Positions 1,491 through 20,726 of a DNA stretch of 64,000 nt are shown here, one piece after another. A model generated the notes under the pieces. That model did not search any database. It saw only the letters and a program-made list of their open reading frames with translations, and was not told the origin of the DNA. Each line of letters starts with the position of its first letter. Within the stretch, counting starts at the first letter, position 1. The DNA comes from Pythium myriotylum (taxonomy: Eukaryota > Oomycota > Peronosporomycetes > Pythiales > Pythiaceae): NCBI GenBank assembly GCA_023091665.1, contig JALJCQ010000021.1:1-64000 (forward strand), written 5' to 3'. The translations under genes were made by a program, and so were the position numbers.

Positions 1491-1518
1491 CCCAAACCCT
1501 ACCCTAAACCCTAAACCC
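1491..1518 (+). repeat. Telomere-like run inside the PLE 3' UTR
   Basis: A run of three to four heptamers close to CCCTAAA, with two irregular steps at its left end, lies inside the element. It is present at the same place in all four copies with a complete 3' region (1491-1518, 5387-5414, 9386-9413, 12963-12990), so it is part of the mobile sequence and not a recent telomere addition. It probably fossilises an old element/telomere junction that later became internal. Confidence 0.8.
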
Positions 1519-1560
1519 AGACGAAAATTTCGGCCAACCCAGTCGAAAAGTTTGTCGAAG

Positions 1561-1618
1561 GTTCGAGAACGTTCGACCGAACATTCGAGAATATTCCCGA
1601 GAATGTTCGAGAATGTTC
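1561..1618 (+). promoter_or_regulatory. Heat-shock-element-like array in pLTR (insert 1)
   Basis: Alternating TTC and GAA triplets spaced by two bases fill 58 bp: TTCnnGAAnnTTC, then GAAnnTTCnnGAAnnTTC, then a further TTCnnGAAnnTTC. Three or more inverted nGAAn modules are the established binding site of heat shock factor. The spacing is visible in the sequence; promoter activity is inferred from the place, about 360 bp upstream of an ORF1 start when a pLTR precedes a unit. Copies lie at 5457-5514, 5879-5936, 9456-9513 and 13033-13090. Confidence 0.55.
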
Positions 1619-1717
1619 AACCCAGGACGTCGAATATTCTCACGTGTCTCAAGACCCCAGCAGCACAGACACGCAGACCCAGAACACTCAAGTTCCTGTC
1701 CAGCCCTAGAACCCAGA

Positions 1718-1756
1718 AGCGTAGGACTCTAGCGTAGGACTTTAGCGTAGGCACCC
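1718..1756 (+). repeat. Three 13-bp direct repeats in pLTR
   Basis: AGCGTAGG followed by ACTCT, ACTTT or CACCC occurs three times back to back (1718-1730, 1731-1743, 1744-1756). The same trio is present in every pLTR copy, including both truncated ones. The function is unknown; protein binding or RT slippage origin are both possible. Confidence 0.7.
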
Positions 1757-1811
1757 GGGGGCGAGGTCGGCGGTCTTCCTCAGTTTTCAATTTTCCACTC
1801 AGCACGAAGAC

Positions 1812-1875
1812 GCCCACCGACGAAGACATCAAGTCGAAAGAGCCCCTGCATCTGTAATAGAGCAACTCTTTGGGT
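1812..1875 (+). ncRNA. Hammerhead-ribozyme-like motif, degenerate
   Basis: The order of parts matches a hammerhead. Helix I is GCCCA (1812-1816) with TGGGT (1871-1875). The core is CCGACGA (1817-1823), against a CUGANGA consensus. Helix II is GAC/GTC with an ATCAA loop, followed by GAA. Helix III is AGAG (1839-1842) with CTCT (1866-1869), and U1870 is the residue before the expected cleavage site. Two deviations weaken it: C at the conserved U4 and an extra A between A9 and helix II. Hammerheads are known in PLE terminal repeats, which supports descent from one. Copies: 2131-2194, 5708-5771, 6130-6193, 9707-9770, 13284-13347. Confidence 0.35.
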
Positions 1876-1920
1876 CGTAGTTTCCCTGACCAAGTCTTTG
1901 CAAGTCACTTCAAGCCTCTC

Positions 1921-1970
1921 TAAACCCTAAACCCTAAACCCTAAACCCTAAACCCTAAACCCTAGACCCT
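1921..1970. repeat. Interstitial telomeric tract between inserts 1 and 2
   Basis: Six perfect TAAACCC units (1921-1962) are followed by a variant TAGACCC and then by the truncated pLTR of insert 2, which itself starts AGACCCC. The last bases therefore belong equally to the telomere variant and the element, a microhomology join. The tract marks a former chromosome end onto which insert 1 was added. Confidence 0.93.
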
Positions 1971-2239
1971 AGACCCCAGCAGCACAGACACGCAGACCCA
2001 GAACACTCAAGTTCCTGTCCAGCCCTAGAACCCAGAAGCGTAGGACTCTAGCGTAGGACTTTAGCGTAGGCACCCGGGGGCGAGGTCGGCGGTCTTCCTC
2101 AGTTTTCAATTTTCCACTCAGCACGAAGACGCCCACCGACGAAGACATCAAGTCGAAAGAGCCCCTGCATCTGTAATAGAGCAACTCTTTGGGTCGTAGT
2201 TTCCCTGACCAAGTCTTTGCAAGTCACTTCAAGCCTCTC
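1971..2239 (+). repeat. Left pLTR of insert 2, 5'-truncated
   Basis: It matches 1652-1920 of the full pLTR at a constant offset of 319. It keeps the 13-bp repeats and the hammerhead-like fold (2131-2194) but has lost the heat-shock-like array and CACGTG. Confidence 0.88.
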
Positions 2240-2299
2240 TAAACCCTAGACCAAGCCCCGCGTGACGAAGCAATTAAGGAAAGACTCTCCATCATCGCC
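2240..2299 (+). other. Leader of PLE unit with single telomeric heptamer
   Basis: TAAACCC (2240-2246) and TAGACC join the pLTR to a roughly 50-bp leader. The same join occurs at 6239 and 9816, including inside the uninterrupted dimer, so it is internal element sequence. The leader ends GCCATGG, a very good eukaryotic start context for ORF1. Confidence 0.7.
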
Positions 2300-3208
2300 A
2301 TGGATCGTAGTCTGCCGCGCCCACTGATGAAGACCACCCTGGAGTATCTGGAGCGCTATAAGAAGCTGCACCGGAAGCTCAGCGCGAAGCAAGAGAGCCT
2401 CCGCAAGATGCAACAACAACGCGAACGCCAAGAAGTACCCAGATCCCTGCGAGTACAGGCCAAGCTTGTTGTCTCCAACGAACTCCAGACGGCCCTTCCA
2501 ACTCGAGTGCTCACGCTGATGAATCAATTCGATGCTCTGAAGCTACAGTTTCAGCACCAAGCCTTCGATCTCATCCTCAGCGTACAGAAAGCCGAACTCG
2601 AACAACTTGAGCTCCAAGTTCAGAAGCTCCGAGACGATTTCCAAGATCGAGCACTTGAGTACTGCAAGCTCGCATGCAAAGCCGACCCGAACGGCAAGTA
2701 TGACACTATCAACTGGGATGCCATGGAAGAAGAAGATCGAGACGAGAACGCATATGTCGACATCTACCACCATGCCAAGGACGAGTTCGAAGCTCGCCTG
2801 ACCCAGTTTGAGCTTGCGGAACGATACAGCCAAGCTGATGCGAGCATCCGACTCGTCGACAAGCAAGCCAAGCAAGCCGCGGCTGCCGACATGGAGGTGG
2901 AAACTCCAAACCAGGATCTCGTGAACGTGTTGATTGATCGCAAGCTACAATCGATCAAGAACGAACTACGACAGCTCCGTATCGACCGGAAGGTTCCAAA
3001 GCAACAGGAACGAAAAAACGCCAGAGCTGGCGCGAAGGGTGCGACCGTCAGCAAGAACAAGAAGCACCCTGCACCAAAGGCCGACGCCGCAAAGGGAACT
3101 TCCGCCTCAAACAGCGGAAGAAACGGCAACACGCGAAGCGCAAGCAAAAGGAAAAGGAGCAACGCCGCCGACAAACCGCCGCGCGGCGCCAAAACCGCGC
3201 GATCATAA
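2300..3208 (+). CDS. PLE ORF1, coiled-coil protein with basic tail (insert 2)
   Basis: This is a 302-aa protein. Residues about 11-45, 78-125 and 155-232 are rich in L, K, E, Q and R with heptad-like spacing and are probably coiled coils. An acidic patch (MEEEDRDEN, 142-150) lies between them. Residues 229-302 are strongly basic, with SKRKRS resembling a nuclear localisation signal. I see no zinc knuckle, RRM or enzymatic motif. By analogy with other non-LTR-type elements it may bind element RNA and oligomerise; that is inference. The start is fixed by GCCATGG and by the lack of a better ATG. Its last 271 bases overlap the RT frame. A slippery site at codons 238-240 offers a switch into that frame, so ORF1 would be made alone most of the time. 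Confidence 0.85.
   Translation: MDRSLPRPLMKTTLEYLERYKKLHRKLSAKQESLRKMQQQRERQEVPRSLRVQAKLVVSNELQTALPTRVLTLMNQFDALKLQFQHQAFDLILSVQKAELEQLELQVQKLRDDFQDRALEYCKLACKADPNGKYDTINWDAMEEEDRDENAYVDIYHHAKDEFEARLTQFELAERYSQADASIRLVDKQAKQAAAADMEVETPNQDLVNVLIDRKLQSIKNELRQLRIDRKVPKQQERKNARAGAKGATVSKNKKHPAPKADAAKGTSASNSGRNGNTRSASKRKRSNAADKPPRGAKTARS
3013..3070 (+). promoter_or_regulatory. -1 ribosomal frameshift signal (slippery site and pseudoknot), insert 2
   Basis: The heptamer AAAAAAC (3013-3019) is read in ORF1 frame as CGA AAA AAC, which is the canonical X_XXY_YYZ arrangement. After six bases, stem 1 pairs GCTGGCG (3026-3032) with CGTCAGC (3046-3052), 7 bp with one G-U. Stem 2 pairs AGGGTGC (3036-3042) with GCACCCT (3064-3070), 7 bp. 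Loops are 3 nt, 3 nt and 11 nt, and the last (3053-3063) has only A, G and one C, eight of eleven being A. Spacing, frame and topology fit known -1 frameshift pseudoknots. The RT frame is exactly -1 to ORF1. Confidence 0.82.
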
Positions 3209-5133
3209 GACGCGACCGCTCGGATCTCTTCAACGCCAGTTTGATCTTCGGCTGTCGTAGGGCTTGTGATGTGGACGCATTGCCTCGCAATCTCGCGTTC
3301 CACAATCTCACACCACGTGGCACCAAGATTCCACCAGGTCTGAAGAGACTCCTGGGTCTGAACCTCAAGTTCTGCCCGACACCTCCGCCGCAACGCTCTT
3401 CCCTCTCGCCAGTTACCATCTTCCCCAAACTCGTCCGGTCTCTTCGAATTGCAGTCCAGTTTGCTGACTCCAGCGACCGCGACTACAACTCGAAGATCTA
3501 CGTTCCAAACCTTGCTTTCCAGCCAAACCACCTGCCACGCCATCAAGAAGATTTACTGGAGTCGATCAAGTCACACGCGACCGAACTCATTGCACAGTAT
3601 CCCTTCCGACACAAGTTCAACCTCGACAGCAACCAACGCAACTTGCTACGATTGCTACGAAATGATCCGAACTTGATGGTCGTGCAGGCAGACAAGAACC
3701 TCGGCCCGACGCTCATGCTTCGATCACAGTACACTTCCATGTGTCTTGATCACCTGAGTGACGAGGAGACATACACGCCATTGTATCGTCTTCCCAACGG
3801 ACCAGAGACCCAGATCCAACGGATCGCAGCCAAAGTGAACCTGATCTACATGCTACTCAACTACCAGTACCGTGAAGATCCAGTCATCCAACGACAAGTT
3901 GCTGTCATCAAGTGTAATCCAAGTTCGTGCAAGTTAGGACGCTTCTATGGCCTGATAAAGCTCCACAAGGAGGATCTCGCCATTCGCCCTATCATTGCCA
4001 GCTGCGGAACACCGACAGCCGGTCTCTCGAAGTGGATCGATTTCCAGTTGCAAGACATGCTCCAGCGACAGCCATCGTACCTTCGAGACTCCGACACGCT
4101 GCTGACTGAACTTCGACAGATTCAGCCCAGCCCCAAGCATCGTTTGTTCACATTTGACGCCGTCTCGCTCTACACCAACATCCCCACCAACATCGGCATC
4201 GCAACAATCAAAGCCATGCTCCAAGAAGAGAAGCATCGCTTCGAGAATGTGATCGTCCAAGGTCTCGACTACATCATGAACGAGAACTTGTTCATGTTCG
4301 GAGACTGCGTGTGGAAGCAAATCAAGGGCACCGCCATGGGAACACCATGTGCCCCCACGTACGCATCACTCTACGTAGCGTATCACGAGCGAAGCATCCT
4401 TCGAGAGTTCAGCAACTACATCGTGCTCTACAAGCGCTACATCGACGACGTGTTTTTGATTTGGCAAGACGGAAAAGATCCCCGTGCTTTCGAACTCTTC
4501 AAGATCCGCCTCAACACGATTCCAGGACTTCGCTGGACGTACATGGAACGCGGTCGTGAAGCACCGTTTCTTGACCTCAAAATCCGCCGATCCGACACGA
4601 GATACGAGACTCGAACTCATGAGAAAGAGCTCAATCTCTATCTCTACATCGCGGCTCAAAGCGCACACCCTCCAGGCGTTCTGAAAGGCCTCATCATCGG
4701 CATTGTCCAGAAGTATTACCGCCAGAACACCAGGAAGGAAGATTTCCTGTCTCAAGTCAGAGCCTTCTTCCAGCGCCTGGCAGCTCGCGGATACAACTCT
4801 AACCAGCTTAGAGACCATTTCCGCGACGCCATCGAAAGAATCGCCAAGCTACAAGAAGAAGCACAACAGACGACGCGGCCAACCACGGAACTCGGCAAGC
4901 CCAAGCAAGTCTTCTTGTCTGTGCCTTATGACCCGAACGGCCCAACTCGGAAACAACTACGAGCTATCTATCAAGCCCACCGTATTGAAGACGAGTTCGC
5001 AGCCCACAACATCAAGATCACTGTGTGCTACCGCCGTCCACGGAACCTCCGAGACATACTCTGTCCATCAGAGTTCAGGGCCAACATCTACGACGACCAC
5101 TTCAAGAACAGCTCGGGAGATGCCATGCATTAA
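3019..5133 (+). CDS. PLE reverse transcriptase, endonuclease-deficient (insert 2)
   Basis: The frame is open from 2938 to the TAA at 5131-5133. Its first ATG lies just before the RT motif DKNLGPT, so a normal start would lose essential sequence; translation by -1 frameshift from ORF1 gives a 944-aa fusion (240 + 704). Fusion numbering: very basic linker 241-315; LLGLNLKFCPTP 351-362; DKNLGPT 465-471; KLHK 554-557 and RPII 563-566; catalytic Asp620 in FDAVSLYTNIP; AMGTP 679-683; YIDD 714-717 with both aspartates; FLDLKI 757-762; CYRRPRNLRDIL 910-921. These are PLE-clade RT motifs. Only about 20 residues follow the last one, so the GIY-YIG endonuclease of canonical PLEs is absent. That matches the telomere-associated PLE groups, which use chromosome ends as primers. 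Confidence 0.9.
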   Translation, partial: RQSWREGCDRQQEQEAPCTKGRRRKGNFRLKQRKKRQHAKRKQKEKEQRRRQTAARRQNRAIIRRDRSDLFNASLIFGCRRACDVDALPRNLAFHNLTPRGTKIPPGLKRLLGLNLKFCPTPPPQRSSLSPVTIFPKLVRSLRIAVQFADSSDRDYNSKIYVPNLAFQPNHLPRHQEDLLESIKSHATELIAQYPFRHKFNLDSNQRNLLRLLRNDPNLMVVQADKNLGPTLMLRSQYTSMCLDHLSDEETYTPLYRLPNGPETQIQRIAAKVNLIYMLLNYQYREDPVIQRQVAVIKCNPSSCKLGRFYGLIKLHKEDLAIRPIIASCGTPTAGLSKWIDFQLQDMLQRQPSYLRDSDTLLTELRQIQPSPKHRLFTFDAVSLYTNIPTNIGIATIKAMLQEEKHRFENVIVQGLDYIMNENLFMFGDCVWKQIKGTAMGTPCAPTYASLYVAYHERSILREFSNYIVLYKRYIDDVFLIWQDGKDPRAFELFKIRLNTIPGLRWTYMERGREAPFLDLKIRRSDTRYETRTHEKELNLYLYIAAQSAHPPGVLKGLIIGIVQKYYRQNTRKEDFLSQVRAFFQRLAARGYNSNQLRDHFRDAIERIAKLQEEAQQTTRPTTELGKPKQVFLSVPYDPNGPTRKQLRAIYQAHRIEDEFAAHNIKITVCYRRPRNLRDILCPSEFRANIYDDHFKNSSGDAMH

Positions 5134-5386
5134 AGCCTGGACCACCCCGGACACGGATGACCGTGCCCTTCCAGCGCGCGAGAACGTGTTTAGCCTTGCT
5201 GCTACCCACTCATTTGGAACCATGCCACAGAGTATGGGGTCGTGCAGTGAAGGCTCACGGAGCGGCTGGCTTGGGATGATCCCCCTCGAAAGGGTAACAG
5301 CGAACGCTTGGCATATTGCGAGCAAATTCAAGAATGGCCGCCCGGATCGTGCACTATCTGTCTACAACCCATCCCCGACCCTCAAC
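5134..5386 (+). other. PLE 3' untranslated segment, insert 2
   Basis: Same sequence as 1238-1490, with the post-stop hairpin at 5149-5167. No gene is visible. Confidence 0.6.
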
Positions 5387-5414
5387 CCCAAACCCTACCC
5401 TAAACCCTAAACCC
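5387..5414 (+). repeat. Internal telomere-like run, insert 2
   Basis: Copy of the run at 1491-1518, with the same irregular left heptamers, which shows inheritance with the element. Confidence 0.8.
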
Positions 5415-5816
5415 AGACGAAAATTTCGGCCAACCCAGTCGAAAAGTTTGTCGAAGGTTCGAGAACGTTCGACCGAACATTCGAGAATATTCCCGAGAAT
5501 GTTCGAGAATGTTCAACCCAGGACGTCGAATATTCTCACGTGTCTCAAGACCCCAGCAGCACAGACACGCAGACCCAGAACACTCAAGTTCCTGTCCAGC
5601 CCTAGAACCCAGAAGCGTAGGACTCTAGCGTAGGACTTTAGCGTAGGCACCCGGGGGCGAGGTCGGCGGTCTTCCTCAGTTTTCAATTTTCCACTCAGCA
5701 CGAAGACGCCCACCGACGAAGACATCAAGTCGAAAGAGCCCCTGCATCTGTAATAGAGCAACTCTTTGGGTCGTAGTTTCCCTGACCAAGTCTTTGCAAG
5801 TCACTTCAAGCCTCTC
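5415..5816 (+). repeat. Right pLTR of insert 2
   Basis: Full-length copy with every internal motif. It ends CTCTC immediately before TAAACCC at 5817, the same end point as inserts 1 and 3. Confidence 0.85.
5457..5514 (+). promoter_or_regulatory. Heat-shock-element-like array, right pLTR of insert 2
   Basis: Same GAA/TTC module series as 1561-1618. Here it points toward a telomeric tract and the truncated left pLTR of insert 3. Confidence 0.5.
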
Positions 5817-5873
5817 TAAACCCTAAACCCTAAACCCTAAACCCTAAACCCTAAACCCTAAACCCTAAACCCT
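5817..5873. repeat. Interstitial telomeric tract between inserts 2 and 3
   Basis: Eight perfect TAAACCC units plus one T, joined directly to the truncated left pLTR of insert 3 at CGAAGG. There are no variant repeats at this join, unlike the tract at 1921-1970. Confidence 0.94.
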
Positions 5874-6238
5874 CGAAGGTTCGAGAACGTTCGACCGAAC
5901 ATTCGAGAATATTCCCGAGAATGTTCGAGAATGTTCAACCCAGGACGTCGAATATTCTCACGTGTCTCAAGACCCCAGCAGCACAGACACGCAGACCCAG
6001 AACACTCAAGTTCCTGTCCAGCCCTAGAACCCAGAAGCGTAGGACTCTAGCGTAGGACTTTAGCGTAGGCACCCGGGGGCGAGGTCGGCGGTCTTCCTCA
6101 GTTTTCAATTTTCCACTCAGCACGAAGACGCCCACCGACGAAGACATCAAGTCGAAAGAGCCCCTGCATCTGTAATAGAGCAACTCTTTGGGTCGTAGTT
6201 TCCCTGACCAAGTCTTTGCAAGTCACTTCAAGCCTCTC
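5874..6238 (+). repeat. Left pLTR of insert 3, 5'-truncated
   Basis: Matches 1556-1920 at an offset of 4318. Truncation lies five bases before the heat-shock-like array, so the array (5879-5936), CACGTG, the 13-bp repeats and the hammerhead-like fold are all kept. Confidence 0.88.
5879..5936 (+). promoter_or_regulatory. Heat-shock-element-like array upstream of first unit of insert 3
   Basis: Lies 363-420 bp upstream of the ORF1 ATG at 6299, a plausible promoter position. Sequence as at 1561-1618. Confidence 0.55.
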
Positions 6239-6298
6239 TAAACCCTAGACCAAGCCCCGCGTGACGAAGCAATTAAGGAAAGACTCTCCATCATCGCC

Positions 6299-7207
6299 AT
6301 GGATCGTAGTCTGCCGCGCCCACTGATGAAGACCACCCTGGAGTATCTGGAGCGCTATAAGAAGCTGCACCGGAAGCTCAGCGCGAAGCAAGAGAGCCTC
6401 CGCAAGATGCAACAACAACGCGAACGCCAAGAAGTACCCAGATCCCTGCGAGTACAGGCCAAGCTTGTTGTCTCCAACGAACTCCAGACGGCCCTTCCAA
6501 CTCGAGTGCTCACGCTGATGAATCAATTCGATGCTCTGAAGCTACAGTTTCAGCACCAAGCCTTCGATCTCATCCTCAGCGTACAGAAAGCCGAACTCGA
6601 ACAACTTGAGCTCCAAGTTCAGAAGCTCCGAGACGATTTCCAAGATCGAGCACTTGAGTACTGCAAGCTCGCATGCAAAGCCGACCCGAACGGCAAGTAT
6701 GACACTATCAACTGGGATGCCATGGAAGAAGAAGATCGAGACGAGAACGCATATGTCGACATCTACCACCATGCCAAGGACGAGTTCGAAGCTCGCCTGA
6801 CCCAGTTTGAGCTTGCGGAACGATACAGCCAAGCTGATGCGAGCATCCGACTCGTCGACAAGCAAGCCAAGCAAGCCGCGGCTGCCGACATGGAGGTGGA
6901 AACTCCAAACCAGGATCTCGTGAACGTGTTGATTGATCGCAAGCTACAATCGATCAAGAACGAACTACGACAGCTCCGTATCGACCGGAAGGTTCCAAAG
7001 CAACAGGAACGAAAAAACGCCAGAGCTGGCGCGAAGGGTGCGACCGTCAGCAAGAACAAGAAGCACCCTGCACCAAAGGCCGACGCCGCAAAGGGAACTT
7101 CCGCCTCAAACAGCGGAAGAAACGGCAACACGCGAAGCGCAAGCAAAAGGAAAAGGAGCAACGCCGCCGACAAACCGCCGCGCGGCGCCAAAACCGCGCG
7201 ATCATAA
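6299..7207 (+). CDS. PLE ORF1 (insert 3, first unit)
   Basis: 302 aa, the same translation as the ORF1 at 2300-3208, with the same GCCATGG start and the same overlap with the RT frame. An upstream pLTR with the heat-shock-like array is present, so this unit is better placed for expression than insert 2. Confidence 0.85.
   Translation: MDRSLPRPLMKTTLEYLERYKKLHRKLSAKQESLRKMQQQRERQEVPRSLRVQAKLVVSNELQTALPTRVLTLMNQFDALKLQFQHQAFDLILSVQKAELEQLELQVQKLRDDFQDRALEYCKLACKADPNGKYDTINWDAMEEEDRDENAYVDIYHHAKDEFEARLTQFELAERYSQADASIRLVDKQAKQAAAADMEVETPNQDLVNVLIDRKLQSIKNELRQLRIDRKVPKQQERKNARAGAKGATVSKNKKHPAPKADAAKGTSASNSGRNGNTRSASKRKRSNAADKPPRGAKTARS
7012..7069 (+). promoter_or_regulatory. -1 frameshift signal, insert 3 first unit
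   Basis: Slippery AAAAAAC at 7012-7018. Stem 1 is 7025-7031 with 7045-7051; stem 2 is 7035-7041 with 7063-7069. No base differs from the signal at 3013-3070. Confidence 0.82.
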
Positions 7208-9875: not shown

Positions 9876-10784
9876 ATGGATCGTAGTCTGCCGCGCCCAC
9901 TGATGAAGACCACCCTGGAGTATCTGGAGCGCTATAAGAAGCTGCACCGGAAGCTCAGCGCGAAGCAAGAGAGCCTCCGCAAGATGCAACAACAACGCGA
10001 ACGCCAAGAAGTACCCAGATCCCTGCGAGTACAGGCCAAGCTTGTTGTCTCCAACGAACTCCAGACGGCCCTTCCAACTCGAGTGCTCACGCTGATGAAT
10101 CAATTCGATGCTCTGAAGCTACAGTTTCAGCACCAAGCCTTCGATCTCATCCTCAGCGTACAGAAAGCCGAACTCGAACAACTTGAGCTCCAAGTTCAGA
10201 AGCTCCGAGACGATTTCCAAGATCGAGCACTTGAGTACTGCAAGCTCGCATGCAAAGCCGACCCGAACGGCAAGTATGACACTATCAACTGGGATGCCAT
10301 GGAAGAAGAAGATCGAGACGAGAACGCATATGTCGACATCTACCACCATGCCAAGGACGAGTTCGAAGCTCGCCTGACCCAGTTTGAGCTTGCGGAACGA
10401 TACAGCCAAGCTGATGCGAGCATCCGACTCGTCGACAAGCAAGCCAAGCAAGCCGCGGCTGCCGACATGGAGGTGGAAACTCCAAACCAGGATCTCGTGA
10501 ACGTGTTGATTGATCGCAAGCTACAATCGATCAAGAACGAACTACGACAGCTCCGTATCGACCGGAAGGTTCCAAAGCAACAGGAACGAAAAAACGCCAG
10601 AGCTGGCGCGAAGGGTGCGACCGTCAGCAAGAACAAGAAGCACCCTGCACCAAAGGCCGACGCCGCAAAGGGAACTTCCGCCTCAAACAGCGGAAGAAAC
10701 GGCAACACGCGAAGCGCAAGCAAAAGGAAAAGGAGCAACGCCGCCGACAAACCGCCGCGCGGCGCCAAAACCGCGCGATCATAA
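9876..10784 (+). CDS. PLE ORF1 (insert 3, second unit)
   Basis: 302 aa, with a translation matching the other two ORF1 copies. It has a full pLTR directly upstream. The coiled-coil and basic-tail layout is as described for 2300-3208. Confidence 0.85.
   Translation: MDRSLPRPLMKTTLEYLERYKKLHRKLSAKQESLRKMQQQRERQEVPRSLRVQAKLVVSNELQTALPTRVLTLMNQFDALKLQFQHQAFDLILSVQKAELEQLELQVQKLRDDFQDRALEYCKLACKADPNGKYDTINWDAMEEEDRDENAYVDIYHHAKDEFEARLTQFELAERYSQADASIRLVDKQAKQAAAADMEVETPNQDLVNVLIDRKLQSIKNELRQLRIDRKVPKQQERKNARAGAKGATVSKNKKHPAPKADAAKGTSASNSGRNGNTRSASKRKRSNAADKPPRGAKTARS
10589..10646 (+). promoter_or_regulatory. -1 frameshift signal, insert 3 second unit
   Basis: Slippery AAAAAAC at 10589-10595. Stem 1 is 10602-10608 with 10622-10628; stem 2 is 10612-10618 with 10640-10646. 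The signal is unchanged from the other units. Confidence 0.82.
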
Positions 10785-12990: not shown

Positions 12991-13392
12991 AGACGAAAAT
13001 TTCGGCCAACCCAGTCGAAAAGTTTGTCGAAGGTTCGAGAACGTTCGACCGAACATTCGAGAATATTCCCGAGAATGTTCGAGAATGTTCAACCCAGGAC
13101 GTCGAATATTCTCACGTGTCTCAAGACCCCAGCAGCACAGACACGCAGACCCAGAACACTCAAGTTCCTGTCCAGCCCTAGAACCCAGAAGCGTAGGACT
13201 CTAGCGTAGGACTTTAGCGTAGGCACCCGGGGGCGAGGTCGGCGGTCTTCCTCAGTTTTCAATTTTCCACTCAGCACGAAGACGCCCACCGACGAAGACA
13301 TCAAGTCGAAAGAGCCCCTGCATCTGTAATAGAGCAACTCTTTGGGTCGTAGTTTCCCTGACCAAGTCTTTGCAAGTCACTTCAAGCCTCTC
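12991..13392 (+). repeat. Right pLTR of insert 3
   Basis: Full copy; the heat-shock-like array is at 13033-13090 and the hammerhead-like fold at 13284-13347. If it acts as a promoter it would transcribe through the telomeric tract into the satellite array. Confidence 0.85.
13033..13090 (+). promoter_or_regulatory. Heat-shock-element-like array, right pLTR of insert 3
   Basis: Same module series as 1561-1618. No PLE unit lies downstream, only the tRNA satellite. Confidence 0.5.
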
Positions 13393-13428
13393 TAAACCCT
13401 AAACCCTAAACCCTAAACCCTAAACCCT
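13393..13428. repeat. Innermost interstitial telomeric tract
   Basis: Five perfect TAAACCC units, then TA shared with the first bases of the satellite. It marks the former chromosome end on the broken satellite array. Confidence 0.93.
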
Positions 13429-13836
13429 AGACACATAGACACATACAACAACACAAAGACACACAGACACACAGACGCACAGACACACGGATACGACGAA
13501 TGCGAACGTGCATAAACCGTGAGTTCTGCGCGAGTCGAATAGATGGGGTGCACTGTCCAGTCAAGTTCGGTGATGACGATGGGAGCCGAGGTGGCTTTGG
13601 CTTTTGGTGTGGAGTCGCGTGGAAGGTGTCTCCGCTGTCGAGCGCACGGCGAGATCAACGCGTTGGGGTGAGTGGCGAGTTGGTGTTGGTGTTGGTCTAC
13701 GATACGAATGCGTGGTGTGGAGCGTGGAGGGTGTTGTTAGAGTGTGTGGGAAGTTGTGTGGTGATGTGTTGTTTTGTCCTGGCGTGTTGTGTGTAAGTGT
13801 AGTGATGGGTGGGTCAAAAAGTGTCAATATTGGCGT

Positions 13837-13918
13837 GTCAGTTTGCCCGAGTGGTCTAAGGGGTTACGTTCAGGTCGTAATGTATTCGTACTCGTGGCTT
13901 CAAATCCCACAGCTGACA
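13837..13918 (+). tRNA. tRNA-Leu(CAG), copy 1, T-stem variant
   Basis: The 82-nt gene folds as a type II tRNA. Acceptor GTCAGTT pairs with AGCTGAC (one G-U), with discriminator A. The D stem is CCC/GGG. The anticodon stem is TTACG/CGTAA with loop TTCAGGT (U33, anticodon CAG, G37). The long variable arm is GTA-TTCG-TAC and the T stem GTGGG/CCCAC. Length, A73 and the CAG anticodon give leucine; no intron, and CCA is not encoded. This copy has C for G at position 53, breaking the last T-stem pair and the B box. Next heptamer array: 14484-14574, 13 repeats. Next tRNA 1392 bp on. Confidence 0.75.
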
Positions 13919-13932
13919 TTTTGACACGTTTT
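13919..13932 (+). terminator. RNA polymerase III terminator, two T4 runs
   Basis: TTTT at 13919-13922 follows the discriminator base directly, and a second TTTT lies at 13929-13932. T runs of four or more end pol III transcripts. The pair is kept behind every tRNA copy in the array. Confidence 0.8.
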
Positions 13933-13936
13933 GCAC

Positions 13937-14046
13937 CGACACACAACACACAAACACAAACACACACACAAACACAAACACACACAACACACACACCAAC
14001 ACACAAGCACCCACCACACCCATGCCCTTACACACCACCCACAACC
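13937..14046 (+). repeat. CA-rich tract of unit 1
   Basis: Built mainly of ACACAC and AAACAC blocks. An 18-bp block of the type AAACACAAACACACACAC occurs two times in most units and three times in the units of tRNA copies 14, 17, 21, 22, 25, 27, 28, 31 and 32. Unit 13 has a separate 21-bp duplication. No gene is present. Confidence 0.85.
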
Positions 14047-14166
14047 ACCCCCTCCTCCCCTCCCCCACCACCACACGTCTCCCTTCTCCCCCTCTCTCTC
14101 TCTCCTCCTCCTCCTCCTCCTCTCTCTCTCTCTCTCCTCCCTCTCCTCCCCTCTTCGCCTCTTCCC
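14047..14166 (+). repeat. Polypyrimidine tract (CTC)n/(CT)n of unit 1
   Basis: From 14078 to 14156 the + strand has no purine. It consists of CCCTCT, CTC and CT blocks whose numbers vary between units. Long mirror-like pyrimidine tracts can form triplex (H-DNA) structures; whether this one does is untested. Confidence 0.85.
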
Positions 14167-14483
14167 ACACCATGACCTTTTGAGGCGCTGTCTCCTGACC
14201 GGGTCCTGTCCATTCATTACCCGTCGCATTGCATTGCCCGGAGTCCGCTGTCCCGACACCCATGAAGTGTGTCCAATCTTTGCCGCTGTTGGTTCTCCTT
14301 GCCTGGCATGACCGCCGTGTTGGGTGGAGCGGTGGCGGGAGAACGTGTTGCTTGGTGATTGCGTGCTTTGTTCGTGGATATCTGTTGTTTGTGTGTGGCG
14401 TGAAGCCCCGAGTCAAATTCTGGAGTAGCCCAGTGTCCTCGGAGCGCGAGGCAAGCGTTGGGAGCACTCGTGTCTGTCTGGAC
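14167..14483 (+). other. Non-repetitive part of satellite unit 1, left of heptamers
   Basis: Mixed-composition sequence of about 315 bp, nearly unchanged between units apart from a C-to-T change at 40321 and its equivalents near 41694 and 44464. An ATG at 14229 opens a frame that runs through the heptamers, but its composition and shared stops give no sign of a protein. I see no other gene. Confidence 0.6.
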
Positions 14484-14574
14484 AAAGGGCAAAGGGCAAA
14501 GGGCAAAGGGCAAAGGGCAAAGGGCAAAGGGCAAAGGGCAAAGGGCAAAGGGCAAAGGGCAAAGGGCAAAGGGC
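14484..14574 (+). repeat. G-rich minisatellite (AAAGGGC)13 of unit 1
   Basis: Thirteen perfect heptamers with GGG every seven bases on the + strand, enough for several G-quadruplex registers with 4-nt loops (CAAA). Each array in the window starts after GTCTGTCTGGAC and ends in AAAAGAC. Copy number by unit is given with each tRNA entry. Confidence 0.95.
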
Positions 14575-14757
14575 AAAAGACAAAGAGGCAAGGCGGGAAC
14601 CAAGCAACACGACAGAAAGAAGCAATACTAGGAAGAGGAGGTGAGACTACAGAGAAAGAGGCGAGACTAGAAAGAACGAAGACTAGGCAAAAACAGAGAA
14701 ACAACGAAGACGGGGAGACGGGATGGCGGGAAGAAGAAGAGAAACTAAAACACACAC
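14575..14757 (+). repeat. Purine-rich tract of unit 1
   Basis: About 180 bp dominated by GA, GAA and GAGA runs on the + strand, opposite in strand bias to the pyrimidine tract of the same unit. It is not a simple repeat and is well conserved between units. One unit has a private A-to-T change near 56243. Confidence 0.7.
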
Positions 14758-14816
14758 GGCAACTGACCGCCAACAACAGCAGGCAGCAAAGCCACTCGCC
14801 AGGCACACACATTAAT

Positions 14817-14881
14817 ACACAGACACATAGACACATACAACAACACAAAGACACACAGACACACAGACGCACAGACACACG
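14817..14881 (+). repeat. CACAGA-type tract of unit 1
   Basis: ACACAG and ACACAT blocks. It is expanded by 24 bp in the units that precede tRNA copies 33 and 36 (near 57844 and 62010). The base after this tract distinguishes two unit types, CGGATACG and CAGATACG. Confidence 0.8.
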
Positions 14882-15228
14882 GATACGACGAATGCGAACG
14901 TGCATAAACCGTGAGTTCTGCGCGAGTCGAATAGATGGGGTGCACTGTCCAGTCAAGTTCGGTGATGACGATGGGAGCCGAGGTGGCTTTGGCTTTTGGT
15001 GTGGAGTCGCGTGGAAGGTGTCTCCGCTGTCGAGCGCACGGCGAGATCAACGCGTTGGGGTGAGTGGCGAGTTGGTGTTGGTGTTGGTCTACGATACGAA
15101 TGCGTGGTGTGGAGCGTGGAGGGTGTTGTTAGAGTGTGTGGGAAGTTGTGTGGTGATGTGTTGTTTTGTCCTGGCGTGTTGTGTGTAAGTGTAGTGATGG
15201 GTGGGTCAAAAAGTGTCAATATTGGCGT
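14882..15228 (+). other. GT-rich segment upstream of tRNA copy 2
   Basis: About 350 bp with several TTGGTG and GTGTTG runs. Just before the tRNA, GTGTCA occurs twice, the second overlapping the 5' end of the tRNA, and an AATATT motif lies 17-22 bp upstream that might position TFIIIB. No protein gene is visible. Confidence 0.5.
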
Positions 15229-15310
15229 GTCAGTTTGCCCGAGTGGTCTAAGGGGTTACGTTCAGGTCGTAATGTATTCGTACTCGTGGGTTCAAATCCC
15301 ACAGCTGACA
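15229..15310 (+). tRNA. tRNA-Leu(CAG), copy 2
   Basis: Intact cloverleaf with a complete GTGGG/CCCAC T stem and B box GGTTCAAATCC; this is the reference form. Heptamers follow at 15876-15952 (11). Next copy 1378 bp on. Confidence 0.95.
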
Positions 15311-16606
15311 TTTTGACACGTTTTGCACCGACACACAACACACAAACACAAACACACACACAAACACAAACACACACAACACACACACCAACACACAAGC
15401 ACCCACCACACCCATGCCCTTACACACCACCCACAACCACCCCCTCCTCCCCTCCCCCACCACCACACGTCTCCCTTCTCCCCCTCTCTCTCTCTCCTCC
15501 TCCTCCTCCTCCTCTCTCTCTCTCTCTCCTCCCTCTCCTCCCCTCTTCGCCTCTTCCCACACCATGACCTTTTGAGGCGCTGTCTCCTGACCGGGTCCTG
15601 TCCATTCATTACCCGTCGCATTGCATTGCCCGGAGTCCGCTGTCCCGACACCCATGAAGTGTGTCCAATCTTTGCCGCTGTTGGTTCTCCTTGCCTGGCA
15701 TGACCGCCGTGTTGGGTGGAGCGGTGGCGGGAGAACGTGTTGCTTGGTGATTGCGTGCTTTGTTCGTGGATATCTGTTGTTTGTGTGTGGCGTGAAGCCC
15801 CGAGTCAAATTCTGGAGTAGCCCAGTGTCCTCGGAGCGCGAGGCAAGCGTTGGGAGCACTCGTGTCTGTCTGGACAAAGGGCAAAGGGCAAAGGGCAAAG
15901 GGCAAAGGGCAAAGGGCAAAGGGCAAAGGGCAAAGGGCAAAGGGCAAAGGGCAAAAGACAAAGAGGCAAGGCGGGAACCAAGCAACACGACAGAAAGAAG
16001 CAATACTAGGAAGAGGAGGTGAGACTACAGAGAAAGAGGCGAGACTAGAAAGAACGAAGACTAGGCAAAAACAGAGAAACAACGAAGACGGGGAGACGGG
16101 ATGGCGGGAAGAAGAAGAGAAACTAAAACACACACGGCAACTGACCGCCAACAACAGCAGGCAGCAAAGCCACTCGCCAGGCACACACATTAATACACAG
16201 ACACATAGACACATACAACAACACAAAGACACACAGACACACAGACGCACAGACACACGGATACGACGAATGCGAACGTGCATAAACCGTGAGTTCTGCG
16301 CGAGTCGAATAGATGGGGTGCACTGTCCAGTCAAGTTCGGTGATGACGATGGGAGCCGAGGTGGCTTTGGCTTTTGGTGTGGAGTCGCGTGGAAGGTGTC
16401 TCCGCTGTCGAGCGCACGGCGAGATCAACGCGTTGGGGTGAGTGGCGAGTTGGTGTTGGTGTTGGTCTACGATACGAATGCGTGGTGTGGAGCGTGGAGG
16501 GTGTTGTTAGAGTGTGTGGGAAGTTGTGTGGTGATGTGTTGTTTTGTCCTGGCGTGTTGTGTGTAAGTGTAGTGATGGGTGGGTCAAAAAGTGTCAATAT
16601 TGGCGT

Positions 16607-16688
16607 GTCAGTTTGCCCGAGTGGTCTAAGGGGTTACGTTCAGGTCGTAATGTATTCGTACTCGTGGGTTCAAATCCCACAGCTGACA
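16607..16688 (+). tRNA. tRNA-Leu(CAG), copy 3
   Basis: Intact reference form. Heptamers 17254-17323 (10). Next copy 1371 bp on. Confidence 0.95.
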
Positions 16689-17977
16689 TTTTGACACGTT
16701 TTGCACCGACACACAACACACAAACACAAACACACACACAAACACAAACACACACAACACACACACCAACACACAAGCACCCACCACACCCATGCCCTTA
16801 CACACCACCCACAACCACCCCCTCCTCCCCTCCCCCACCACCACACGTCTCCCTTCTCCCCCTCTCTCTCTCTCCTCCTCCTCCTCCTCCTCTCTCTCTC
16901 TCTCTCCTCCCTCTCCTCCCCTCTTCGCCTCTTCCCACACCATGACCTTTTGAGGCGCTGTCTCCTGACCGGGTCCTGTCCATTCATTACCCGTCGCATT
17001 GCATTGCCCGGAGTCCGCTGTCCCGACACCCATGAAGTGTGTCCAATCTTTGCCGCTGTTGGTTCTCCTTGCCTGGCATGACCGCCGTGTTGGGTGGAGC
17101 GGTGGCGGGAGAACGTGTTGCTTGGTGATTGCGTGCTTTGTTCGTGGATATCTGTTGTTTGTGTGTGGCGTGAAGCCCCGAGTCAAATTCTGGAGTAGCC
17201 CAGTGTCCTCGGAGCGCGAGGCAAGCGTTGGGAGCACTCGTGTCTGTCTGGACAAAGGGCAAAGGGCAAAGGGCAAAGGGCAAAGGGCAAAGGGCAAAGG
17301 GCAAAGGGCAAAGGGCAAAGGGCAAAAGACAAAGAGGCAAGGCGGGAACCAAGCAACACGACAGAAAGAAGCAATACTAGGAAGAGGAGGTGAGACTACA
17401 GAGAAAGAGGCGAGACTAGAAAGAACGAAGACTAGGCAAAAACAGAGAAACAACGAAGACGGGGAGACGGGATGGCGGGAAGAAGAAGAGAAACTAAAAC
17501 ACACACGGCAACTGACCGCCAACAACAGCAGGCAGCAAAGCCACTCGCCAGGCACACACATTAATACACAGACACATAGACACATACAACAACACAAAGA
17601 CACACAGACACACAGACGCACAGACACACGGATACGACGAATGCGAACGTGCATAAACCGTGAGTTCTGCGCGAGTCGAATAGATGGGGTGCACTGTCCA
17701 GTCAAGTTCGGTGATGACGATGGGAGCCGAGGTGGCTTTGGCTTTTGGTGTGGAGTCGCGTGGAAGGTGTCTCCGCTGTCGAGCGCACGGCGAGATCAAC
17801 GCGTTGGGGTGAGTGGCGAGTTGGTGTTGGTGTTGGTCTACGATACGAATGCGTGGTGTGGAGCGTGGAGGGTGTTGTTAGAGTGTGTGGGAAGTTGTGT
17901 GGTGATGTGTTGTTTTGTCCTGGCGTGTTGTGTGTAAGTGTAGTGATGGGTGGGTCAAAAAGTGTCAATATTGGCGT

Positions 17978-18059
17978 GTCAGTTTGCCCGAGTGGTCTAA
18001 GGGGTTACGTTCAGGTCGTAATGTATTCGTACTCGTGGGTTCAAATCCCACAGCTGACA
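17978..18059 (+). tRNA. tRNA-Leu(CAG), copy 4
   Basis: Intact. Heptamers 18625-18694 (10). Next copy 1371 bp on; same length as the previous unit. Confidence 0.95.
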
Positions 18060-19348
18060 TTTTGACACGTTTTGCACCGACACACAACACACAAACACAA
18101 ACACACACACAAACACAAACACACACAACACACACACCAACACACAAGCACCCACCACACCCATGCCCTTACACACCACCCACAACCACCCCCTCCTCCC
18201 CTCCCCCACCACCACACGTCTCCCTTCTCCCCCTCTCTCTCTCTCCTCCTCCTCCTCCTCCTCTCTCTCTCTCTCTCCTCCCTCTCCTCCCCTCTTCGCC
18301 TCTTCCCACACCATGACCTTTTGAGGCGCTGTCTCCTGACCGGGTCCTGTCCATTCATTACCCGTCGCATTGCATTGCCCGGAGTCCGCTGTCCCGACAC
18401 CCATGAAGTGTGTCCAATCTTTGCCGCTGTTGGTTCTCCTTGCCTGGCATGACCGCCGTGTTGGGTGGAGCGGTGGCGGGAGAACGTGTTGCTTGGTGAT
18501 TGCGTGCTTTGTTCGTGGATATCTGTTGTTTGTGTGTGGCGTGAAGCCCCGAGTCAAATTCTGGAGTAGCCCAGTGTCCTCGGAGCGCGAGGCAAGCGTT
18601 GGGAGCACTCGTGTCTGTCTGGACAAAGGGCAAAGGGCAAAGGGCAAAGGGCAAAGGGCAAAGGGCAAAGGGCAAAGGGCAAAGGGCAAAGGGCAAAAGA
18701 CAAAGAGGCAAGGCGGGAACCAAGCAACACGACAGAAAGAAGCAATACTAGGAAGAGGAGGTGAGACTACAGAGAAAGAGGCGAGACTAGAAAGAACGAA
18801 GACTAGGCAAAAACAGAGAAACAACGAAGACGGGGAGACGGGATGGCGGGAAGAAGAAGAGAAACTAAAACACACACGGCAACTGACCGCCAACAACAGC
18901 AGGCAGCAAAGCCACTCGCCAGGCACACACATTAATACACAGACACATAGACACATACAACAACACAAAGACACACAGACACACAGACGCACAGACACAC
19001 GGATACGACGAATGCGAACGTGCATAAACCGTGAGTTCTGCGCGAGTCGAATAGATGGGGTGCACTGTCCAGTCAAGTTCGGTGATGACGATGGGAGCCG
19101 AGGTGGCTTTGGCTTTTGGTGTGGAGTCGCGTGGAAGGTGTCTCCGCTGTCGAGCGCACGGCGAGATCAACGCGTTGGGGTGAGTGGCGAGTTGGTGTTG
19201 GTGTTGGTCTACGATACGAATGCGTGGTGTGGAGCGTGGAGGGTGTTGTTAGAGTGTGTGGGAAGTTGTGTGGTGATGTGTTGTTTTGTCCTGGCGTGTT
19301 GTGTGTAAGTGTAGTGATGGGTGGGTCAAAAAGTGTCAATATTGGCGT

Positions 19349-19430
19349 GTCAGTTTGCCCGAGTGGTCTAAGGGGTTACGTTCAGGTCGTAATGTATTCG
19401 TACTCGTGGGTTCAAATCCCACAGCTGACA
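19349..19430 (+). tRNA. tRNA-Leu(CAG), copy 5
   Basis: Intact. Heptamers 19996-20072 (11). Next copy 1378 bp on. Confidence 0.95.
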
Positions 19431-20726
19431 TTTTGACACGTTTTGCACCGACACACAACACACAAACACAAACACACACACAAACACAAACACACACAAC
19501 ACACACACCAACACACAAGCACCCACCACACCCATGCCCTTACACACCACCCACAACCACCCCCTCCTCCCCTCCCCCACCACCACACGTCTCCCTTCTC
19601 CCCCTCTCTCTCTCTCCTCCTCCTCCTCCTCCTCTCTCTCTCTCTCTCCTCCCTCTCCTCCCCTCTTCGCCTCTTCCCACACCATGACCTTTTGAGGCGC
19701 TGTCTCCTGACCGGGTCCTGTCCATTCATTACCCGTCGCATTGCATTGCCCGGAGTCCGCTGTCCCGACACCCATGAAGTGTGTCCAATCTTTGCCGCTG
19801 TTGGTTCTCCTTGCCTGGCATGACCGCCGTGTTGGGTGGAGCGGTGGCGGGAGAACGTGTTGCTTGGTGATTGCGTGCTTTGTTCGTGGATATCTGTTGT
19901 TTGTGTGTGGCGTGAAGCCCCGAGTCAAATTCTGGAGTAGCCCAGTGTCCTCGGAGCGCGAGGCAAGCGTTGGGAGCACTCGTGTCTGTCTGGACAAAGG
20001 GCAAAGGGCAAAGGGCAAAGGGCAAAGGGCAAAGGGCAAAGGGCAAAGGGCAAAGGGCAAAGGGCAAAGGGCAAAAGACAAAGAGGCAAGGCGGGAACCA
20101 AGCAACACGACAGAAAGAAGCAATACTAGGAAGAGGAGGTGAGACTACAGAGAAAGAGGCGAGACTAGAAAGAACGAAGACTAGGCAAAAACAGAGAAAC
20201 AACGAAGACGGGGAGACGGGATGGCGGGAAGAAGAAGAGAAACTAAAACACACACGGCAACTGACCGCCAACAACAGCAGGCAGCAAAGCCACTCGCCAG
20301 GCACACACATTAATACACAGACACATAGACACATACAACAACACAAAGACACACAGACACACAGACGCACAGACACACGGATACGACGAATGCGAACGTG
20401 CATAAACCGTGAGTTCTGCGCGAGTCGAATAGATGGGGTGCACTGTCCAGTCAAGTTCGGTGATGACGATGGGAGCCGAGGTGGCTTTGGCTTTTGGTGT
20501 GGAGTCGCGTGGAAGGTGTCTCCGCTGTCGAGCGCACGGCGAGATCAACGCGTTGGGGTGAGTGGCGAGTTGGTGTTGGTGTTGGTCTACGATACGAATG
20601 CGTGGTGTGGAGCGTGGAGGGTGTTGTTAGAGTGTGTGGGAAGTTGTGTGGTGATGTGTTGTTTTGTCCTGGCGTGTTGTGTGTAAGTGTAGTGATGGGT
20701 GGGTCAAAAAGTGTCAATATTGGCGT

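Follow-up and report, generated by a model that had tools for sequence, protein, structure and literature searches.

A candidate -1 ribosomal frameshift signal between ORF1 and the reverse transcriptase frame of a putative telomere-associated Penelope-like element in Pythium myriotylum

Among the -1 frameshift signals of viruses and retroelements is a type with an A_AAA_AAC heptamer and an H-type pseudoknot, and the locus described here resembles them in the heptamer, a 6-nt spacer, two 7-bp stems, and an A-rich last loop. It also resembles viral and retroelement -1 signals in that the overlapping frame encodes a polymerase; here the predicted signal lies in a putative Penelope-like element (PLE). 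On mammalian ribosomes, A_AAA_AAC is listed as one of the most shift-prone heptamers (PMC5009743). HeT-A of Drosophila is, like the element studied here, a telomeric retroelement, and its expression is reported to need a frameshift (PMC5009743). HeT-A differs in that it is a non-LTR element, in that the shift is needed for the gag gene, and in that it encodes no reverse transcriptase (RT). The RTs of telomere-capping PLEs have been described as close to telomerase. Within one such lineage, Athena, most copies are reported to carry telomeric repeats at their 3' end and some are 5'-truncated (PMC5537684). Our element and Athena, as described there, are alike in an RT without a GIY-YIG match, 3' telomeric repeats, 5' truncation, and location at chromosome ends (PMC5537684), while overlapping ORF1 and RT frames with a signal, as well as exact 3,577-bp tandem units, set our element apart from that description of Athena. 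An earlier note on this DNA knew of no described frameshift in telomere-associated PLEs, and in the openly accessible portions of the literature we likewise found no report of ribosomal frameshifting in a PLE. As far as those portions go, the device itself is known, and we found no record of it for this class of elements. A 2007 paper on telomere-associated PLEs reportedly named stramenopiles. Before the Ectocarpus elements, PLEs are stated to have been unreported in the supergroup that includes stramenopiles (PMC12477816).

The window, by which we mean the whole 64,000-nt stretch analyzed here, is the left end of contig C21 in a genome of 58.7 Mb in 55 contigs. It opens with a (CCCTAAA)n telomere at the left contig end (positions 1-219; 31.3 copies, 100% matches), continues with tandem retroelement copies, and then passes into a satellite of approximately 1.38 kb. 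TTTAGGG/CCCTAAA is given as a motif for locating oomycete telomeres (PMC11139960). A 5'-truncated element copy directly adjoins the telomere, with 221-1976 matching 4117-5872. Pseudo-LTRs and tandem copies are features of PLEs generally, and both are present here: a 379-bp 3' repeat (5451-5829, forward strand) is a direct repeat of 5873-6251 (99.7%), and the tandem period between the second and third element copies is 3,577 bp. The 3' ends of the elements in the window continue into CTAAACC repeats, with telomeric repeats standing directly at the 3' end at 5816-5873 on the forward strand and likewise at 1920-1976 and 13392-13429.

The terminal setting recurs at other contig ends. All listed RT copies (at least 78; 78 of 93 candidates scored) are carried by 19 contig ends, and in 78 of 78 the 3' end points inward and the copy lies no more than 45,262 bp from the contig end. 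Twelve of the 16 contig ends that were fetched start with 197-309 nt of telomere followed by 5'-truncated pieces, while two of the remaining four start with imperfect repeats and two end within an array. A degenerate DKN[L/I/F]GP pattern matched 81 genome sites, three of which are away from contig ends.

These data bear on the claim in the earlier note that the element is a telomeric PLE. The terminal location of the 78 listed copies upholds the first half of that claim, while PLE identity is provisional and draws on architecture and motifs. Searching the RT frame with Pfam up to E 1 returned RVT_1 and HEPN_Toprim_N, both below cut-off; the RVT_1 match has an E value of 6.5e-5, below the curated cut-off, and RVT_1 matches with E values of 0.01 or lower were found in 24 of the 30 aligned RTs. 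An RT profile searched against solved structures up to E 0.001 matched only two group II intron-like RTs (E 0.0005). NCBIfam returned nothing for the RT of the window and, for its relatives, only sub-cut-off matches to Drt3a, group II, and other RT models. No GIY-YIG endonuclease was found by Pfam up to E 1 in ORF1 or the RT frame, and no hammerhead ribozyme was found by Rfam up to E 5 in 1500-6260. The hammerhead ribozyme motif occurs in other PLEs, and we did not treat it as defining. The RT carries the motifs DKNLGP, AMGTP, YIDD, and FLDL, which we take to be Penelope-like. Placement among the PLEs is thus a provisional assignment that draws on the position at contig ends, the lack of an endonuclease, the pseudo-LTRs, and these motifs, the named family models being silent.

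ORF1 is an open frame of 302 aa with a basic C-terminal tail (2300-3208, forward strand; stop at 3208), and it had zero Pfam matches up to E 1. The RT frame lies one base back from ORF1 and is open from 2938 to 5133, giving a 271-nt overlap (2938-3208, forward strand) in which the RT frame, the -1 frame, is open within ORF1. If read after a -1 shift, the RT frame would run from 3019 to 5133 on the forward strand (704 codons to the stop), and the predicted ORF1-RT fusion would comprise 944 aa, the length given in the earlier note. As that note had claimed, the RT frame has no ATG before its core: the first ATG that it offers, at 3676, comes within the conserved RT, past nearly invariant or invariant residues (F30 to N137 of A1; 30 aligned sequences). 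Since a start at this ATG would discard nearly invariant residues, the RT appears to need ORF1. The note had further drawn on the RT frame being open 271 bases into ORF1. We confirmed this at 2938-3208 but give it less weight, because the +1 frame is likewise open across the last 272 nt of ORF1 and because 1.2% of synonymous permutations of ORF1 leave the -1 frame open for as long as observed. We therefore downgraded the open -1 frame from strong to modest or weak evidence.

Within the overlap, the slippery heptamer A_AAA_AAC stands in the ORF1 frame at 3013-3019 and is preceded by G (GAAAAAAC); the ORF1 codons at the slip site are AAA (3014-3016) and AAC (3017-3019). A 6-nt spacer, GCCAGA (3020-3025), separates the heptamer from an H-type pseudoknot, all on the forward strand. 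In stem 1, GCTGGCG (3026-3032) pairs with CGTCAGC (3046-3052) over 7 bp including one G.U, and in stem 2, AGGGTGC (3036-3042) pairs with GCACCCT (3064-3070) through seven Watson-Crick pairs. Loop 1 is CGA (3 nt), GAC (3 nt) sits between the 5' arm of stem 2 and the 3' arm of stem 1, and loop 3 is A-rich and 11 nt long (AAGAACAAGAA, 3053-3063). The arrangement described in the earlier note (7 + 7 bp, loops of 3, 3, and 11 nt) was thus reproduced base by base. A -1 frameshift signal is recognized by an X_XXY_YYZ heptamer in the zero frame within a -1 overlap and by a stable structure, above chance, 5-9 nt downstream, and the locus has both. Identical signals are present at 7012-7069 and 10589-10646 on the forward strand, as noted before; they belong to near-identical tandem copies and are not independent evidence.

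Chance expectation differs sharply between the two parts of the signal. We scored H-type pseudoknots with a spacer of 5-9 nt by summed stacking energy, and the observed pseudoknot scored -29.98 kcal/mol. No other position in the element reached this value (3,416 tested in 2300-5740), nor did any of the 3,000 dinucleotide shuffles or of the 2,937 positions drawn from 14,000-63,920; among 10,000 versions of ORF1 with synonymous codons permuted and the protein unchanged, 3 did. The heptamer alone is unremarkable and constitutes weak evidence, because 1,020 of 5,000 synonymous permutations (20%) place a canonical in-frame heptamer within the overlap. All parts of the signal on which the earlier note relied are real and correctly placed, but its implied strength must be lowered for the heptamer, which by itself is common by chance.

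We also considered the fold of the region when pseudoknots are disallowed. The nested fold of 3020-3070 has a predicted energy of -17.0 kcal/mol and includes a hairpin that borrows part of stem 1, so free RNA may prefer it over the pseudoknot. Once the ribosome covers the spacer, the part left to fold (3026-3070) has a nested energy of only -12.5 kcal/mol, and the pseudoknot would be expected to win. The competitor of stem 1 in the nested fold, absent from the earlier note, is a 5-bp hairpin (3019-3023/3028-3032). It overlaps the spacer and stem 1 and would have to melt before the pseudoknot could form, making it a possible switch on ribosome arrival.

A close relative of ORF1 is P0121, a protein of 302 aa that is 70% identical to ORF1 without gaps, ends in the same last residues, and comes from a database contig of 3,577 bp, about one tandem period. 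P0121 keeps the residues at the slip site (ERKNARAG, with Lys-Asn at 240-241), and from residue 239 to the end 48 of 64 residues are identical. Compared at the protein level, the residues of P0121 are consistent with base pairing throughout both stems, a compatibility that falls short of proof. By the fewest base changes it differs at three places within 3013-3070, namely loop 1, loop 3, and one pair of stem 2, and the changed stem 2 pair can remain U.G or C-G; the smallest change explaining H256R in P0121 is A3066G. After the slip site, the changes from ORF1 toward P0121 comprise 9 at second and 3 at first codon positions, compared to 23 and 23 upstream of it (one-sided p 0.11), a bias that points toward dual coding but is not significant. 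ORF1 searched alone returned only P0121 (E up to 0.01; proteins of similar length), and a profile of three sequences again returned only P0121 (E up to 1; proteins of similar length, fusions being outside its scope). DNA relatives were sought by pattern in viral contigs (25 matches) and genome contigs (78 matches), with zero confirmed in either.

Variation among copies within the genome is slight. The slip site with the 5' arm of stem 1 occurs exactly at 72 genome places, by a pattern that would also accept a longer A run, and none of the fetched stretches, a set in which some genomic copies appear twice, has an indel at the A run (3013-3019). Fetched copies are almost identical, with only two variable sites in 3013-3208: 3066 A>G in 1 of 60 stretches (the copy on C16), turning a U-A pair of stem 2 into U.G, and 3114 G>A in 6 of 59. 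Both variants alter the ORF1 protein and leave the RT protein unchanged; two variable sites prove little. The copy with the 3066 variant (L041, the right end of C16) is among the most divergent of those fetched (99.4%) and has an ORF1 stop at 2783, upstream of the slip site, while its RT frame is open. Searches of the genome with the RT, ORF1, P0054, and P0085 as queries returned, among the matches listed, only the near-identical family apart from three weak ORF1 matches (E 0.3 to 3.9); 61 of 95, 84 of 84, 78 of 93, and 59 of 92 candidates were scored in these searches, which could miss a divergent copy. ORF1 matches of 63% on C13 were entertained as divergent copies and rejected, as they are copies truncated at window position 3143, judging by the two of the three that were fetched. 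The locus in question (L032, C13:21500-31400) shows a 6,280-bp higher-order repeat in which full-length copies alternate with such truncated ones.

We found one relative in which the two frames are joined. P0045, a database protein of 955 aa (source ena), contains ORF1 and RT in one continuous frame, and its residues 21-868 align with residues 15-897 of the predicted fusion in a single stretch at 29.5% identity. It thus has both domains of the predicted fusion in matching order over almost its full length, and differs in having them in one frame. Against the ORF1 part alone the match is weak (20.6% over 102 residues, pairwise E 6.6e-6). Because P0045 aligns through both domains in one frame, the alignment indicates that a fused ORF1-RT protein is a real architecture in this element family, seen once, and it lends support to the 944-aa product predicted in the earlier note. 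By the same comparison, at least one relative does without frameshifting.

The RT search that yielded P0045 found 1,003 relatives, of which the best 120 were listed (P0001 and 119 others). P0001, from Pythium insidiosum, is the closest named protein among the matches listed (91% over 56% of the RT), and the 119 listed after it have 32-42% identity. Of the 119, 33 have an initial M at fusion residue 329 or later, and 11 start with another residue; a start shared across the RT family is not evident from these proteins, and part of the scatter could come from how genes were called or where contigs end. Eight of the 119 extend back to fusion residue 240 or earlier. The longer relatives P0070, P0085, P0086, P0091, P0102, P0109, and P0113 were considered as ORF1 fusions and rejected, because among those eight only P0045 matches ORF1 (next best E 3). 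As a separate observation, a count by eye gave 27 of the 60 RT relatives from P0002 to P0061 whose longest contig measures 3,200-3,650 bases, about one tandem period; arrays of the element may collapse to one unit in the assemblies of relatives, or this may be chance.

In our judgment, these data are best, and probably correctly, explained by a -1 frameshift signal at the junction of ORF1 and RT. Transcriptional slippage would reach the same product if the polymerase added an extra A in GA6C, such that a share of the mRNAs, carrying A7, read ORF1 into the RT. The run is indeed a G followed by six A, one added base gives the RT frame, and the potyvirus pipo slippage motif is likewise a G followed by six A. 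A one-base polymerase insertion is reported to open pipo in potyviruses (PMC5009743). Slippage by the polymerase leaves a pseudoknot at the ideal distance unexplained, and we regard it as unlikely. Pol II would also be expected to slip only rarely on a run as short as six A, which further counts against it. A slightly less likely route is separate translation of the RT, whether by non-AUG initiation, by reinitiation after ORF1, or from an internal entry site. The telomeric element TART offers a parallel, since its second frame is presumed to be initiated at a start codon described downstream of gag (PMC5009743), but in our element the first ATG, at 3676, falls inside the conserved RT, and neither the pseudoknot nor the one-frame P0045 would be accounted for.

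Two further readings remove the need for a shift in the ribosome or the polymerase by changing the sequence that is read. One is a homopolymer error: if the true run were A7 and a single A had been lost from it, ORF1 and RT would share one frame, as they do in P0045. P0121, a 70% identical protein from another source, shows the same 302-aa extent, C-terminal residues, and Lys-Asn at the slip site, so a sequencing error probably does not account for the split; in addition, the A run is free of indels in the fetched stretches, and the error would make the pseudoknot pointless. We consider this reading very improbable. Least probable of all is an intron in the overlap that joins ORF1 and RT. One rotifer Penelope copy is reported with an intron inside its ORF (PMC3846280), and between 2700 and 3261 there are 80 GT-AG pairs in the right phase that span 40 nt or more, but 2300-3260 contains zero GTRNGT donors and none of the 80 pairs has one.

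Under the preferred -1 frameshift explanation, ribosomes translating ORF1 would pause at the pseudoknot (3026-3070), and with A_AAA_AAC (3013-3019) in the P and A sites a fraction of them would slip one base back into the RT frame. The inferred efficiency would leave the 302-aa ORF1 protein as the main product and the 944-aa ORF1-RT fusion as a minor one, similar to Gag and Gag-Pol. ORF1 might coat the RNA, and the fused, telomerase-like RT might extend the G-rich 3' end of the chromosome on element RNA. Such priming at chromosome ends would yield copies that are 5'-truncated, telomere-capped, and pointing inward, which is how the copies at the contig ends are arranged.

More tentatively, and with confidence slightly short of even, we suggest that a telomere-capping PLE lineage sets the ratio of ORF1 to RT by a virus-type -1 frameshift while relatives such as P0045 fixed a single protein. 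The same tentative reading takes near-identity at 19 contig ends as a sign of very recent activity, and holds that the copies may still be extending chromosome ends alongside telomerase. PLE expression and the dosing of a telomerase-like RT are poorly known, and a compact frameshift signal would bear on both. If true, the signal would tie PLEs mechanistically to Gag-Pol style elements, would point to ORF1 and RT working as a single protein, and would provide a reporter handle on an element that apparently extended chromosome ends very recently.

The satellite beyond the element array has features of its own. From 13836 to 63860, and thus to the end of the window, it contains 37 tRNA-Leu (CAG) genes in tandem, one per unit of approximately 1.38 kb. 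The first of these scores 44 bits against the Rfam tRNA model, above the gathering score, and an Rfam scan of 13300-20000 with default filters listed zero tRNAs despite this score. At 14483-14591, and at the same place in further satellite units, there is a (CAAAGGG)n array of about 6 to 15 copies among the units listed, and this 7-mer resembles the telomere repeat.
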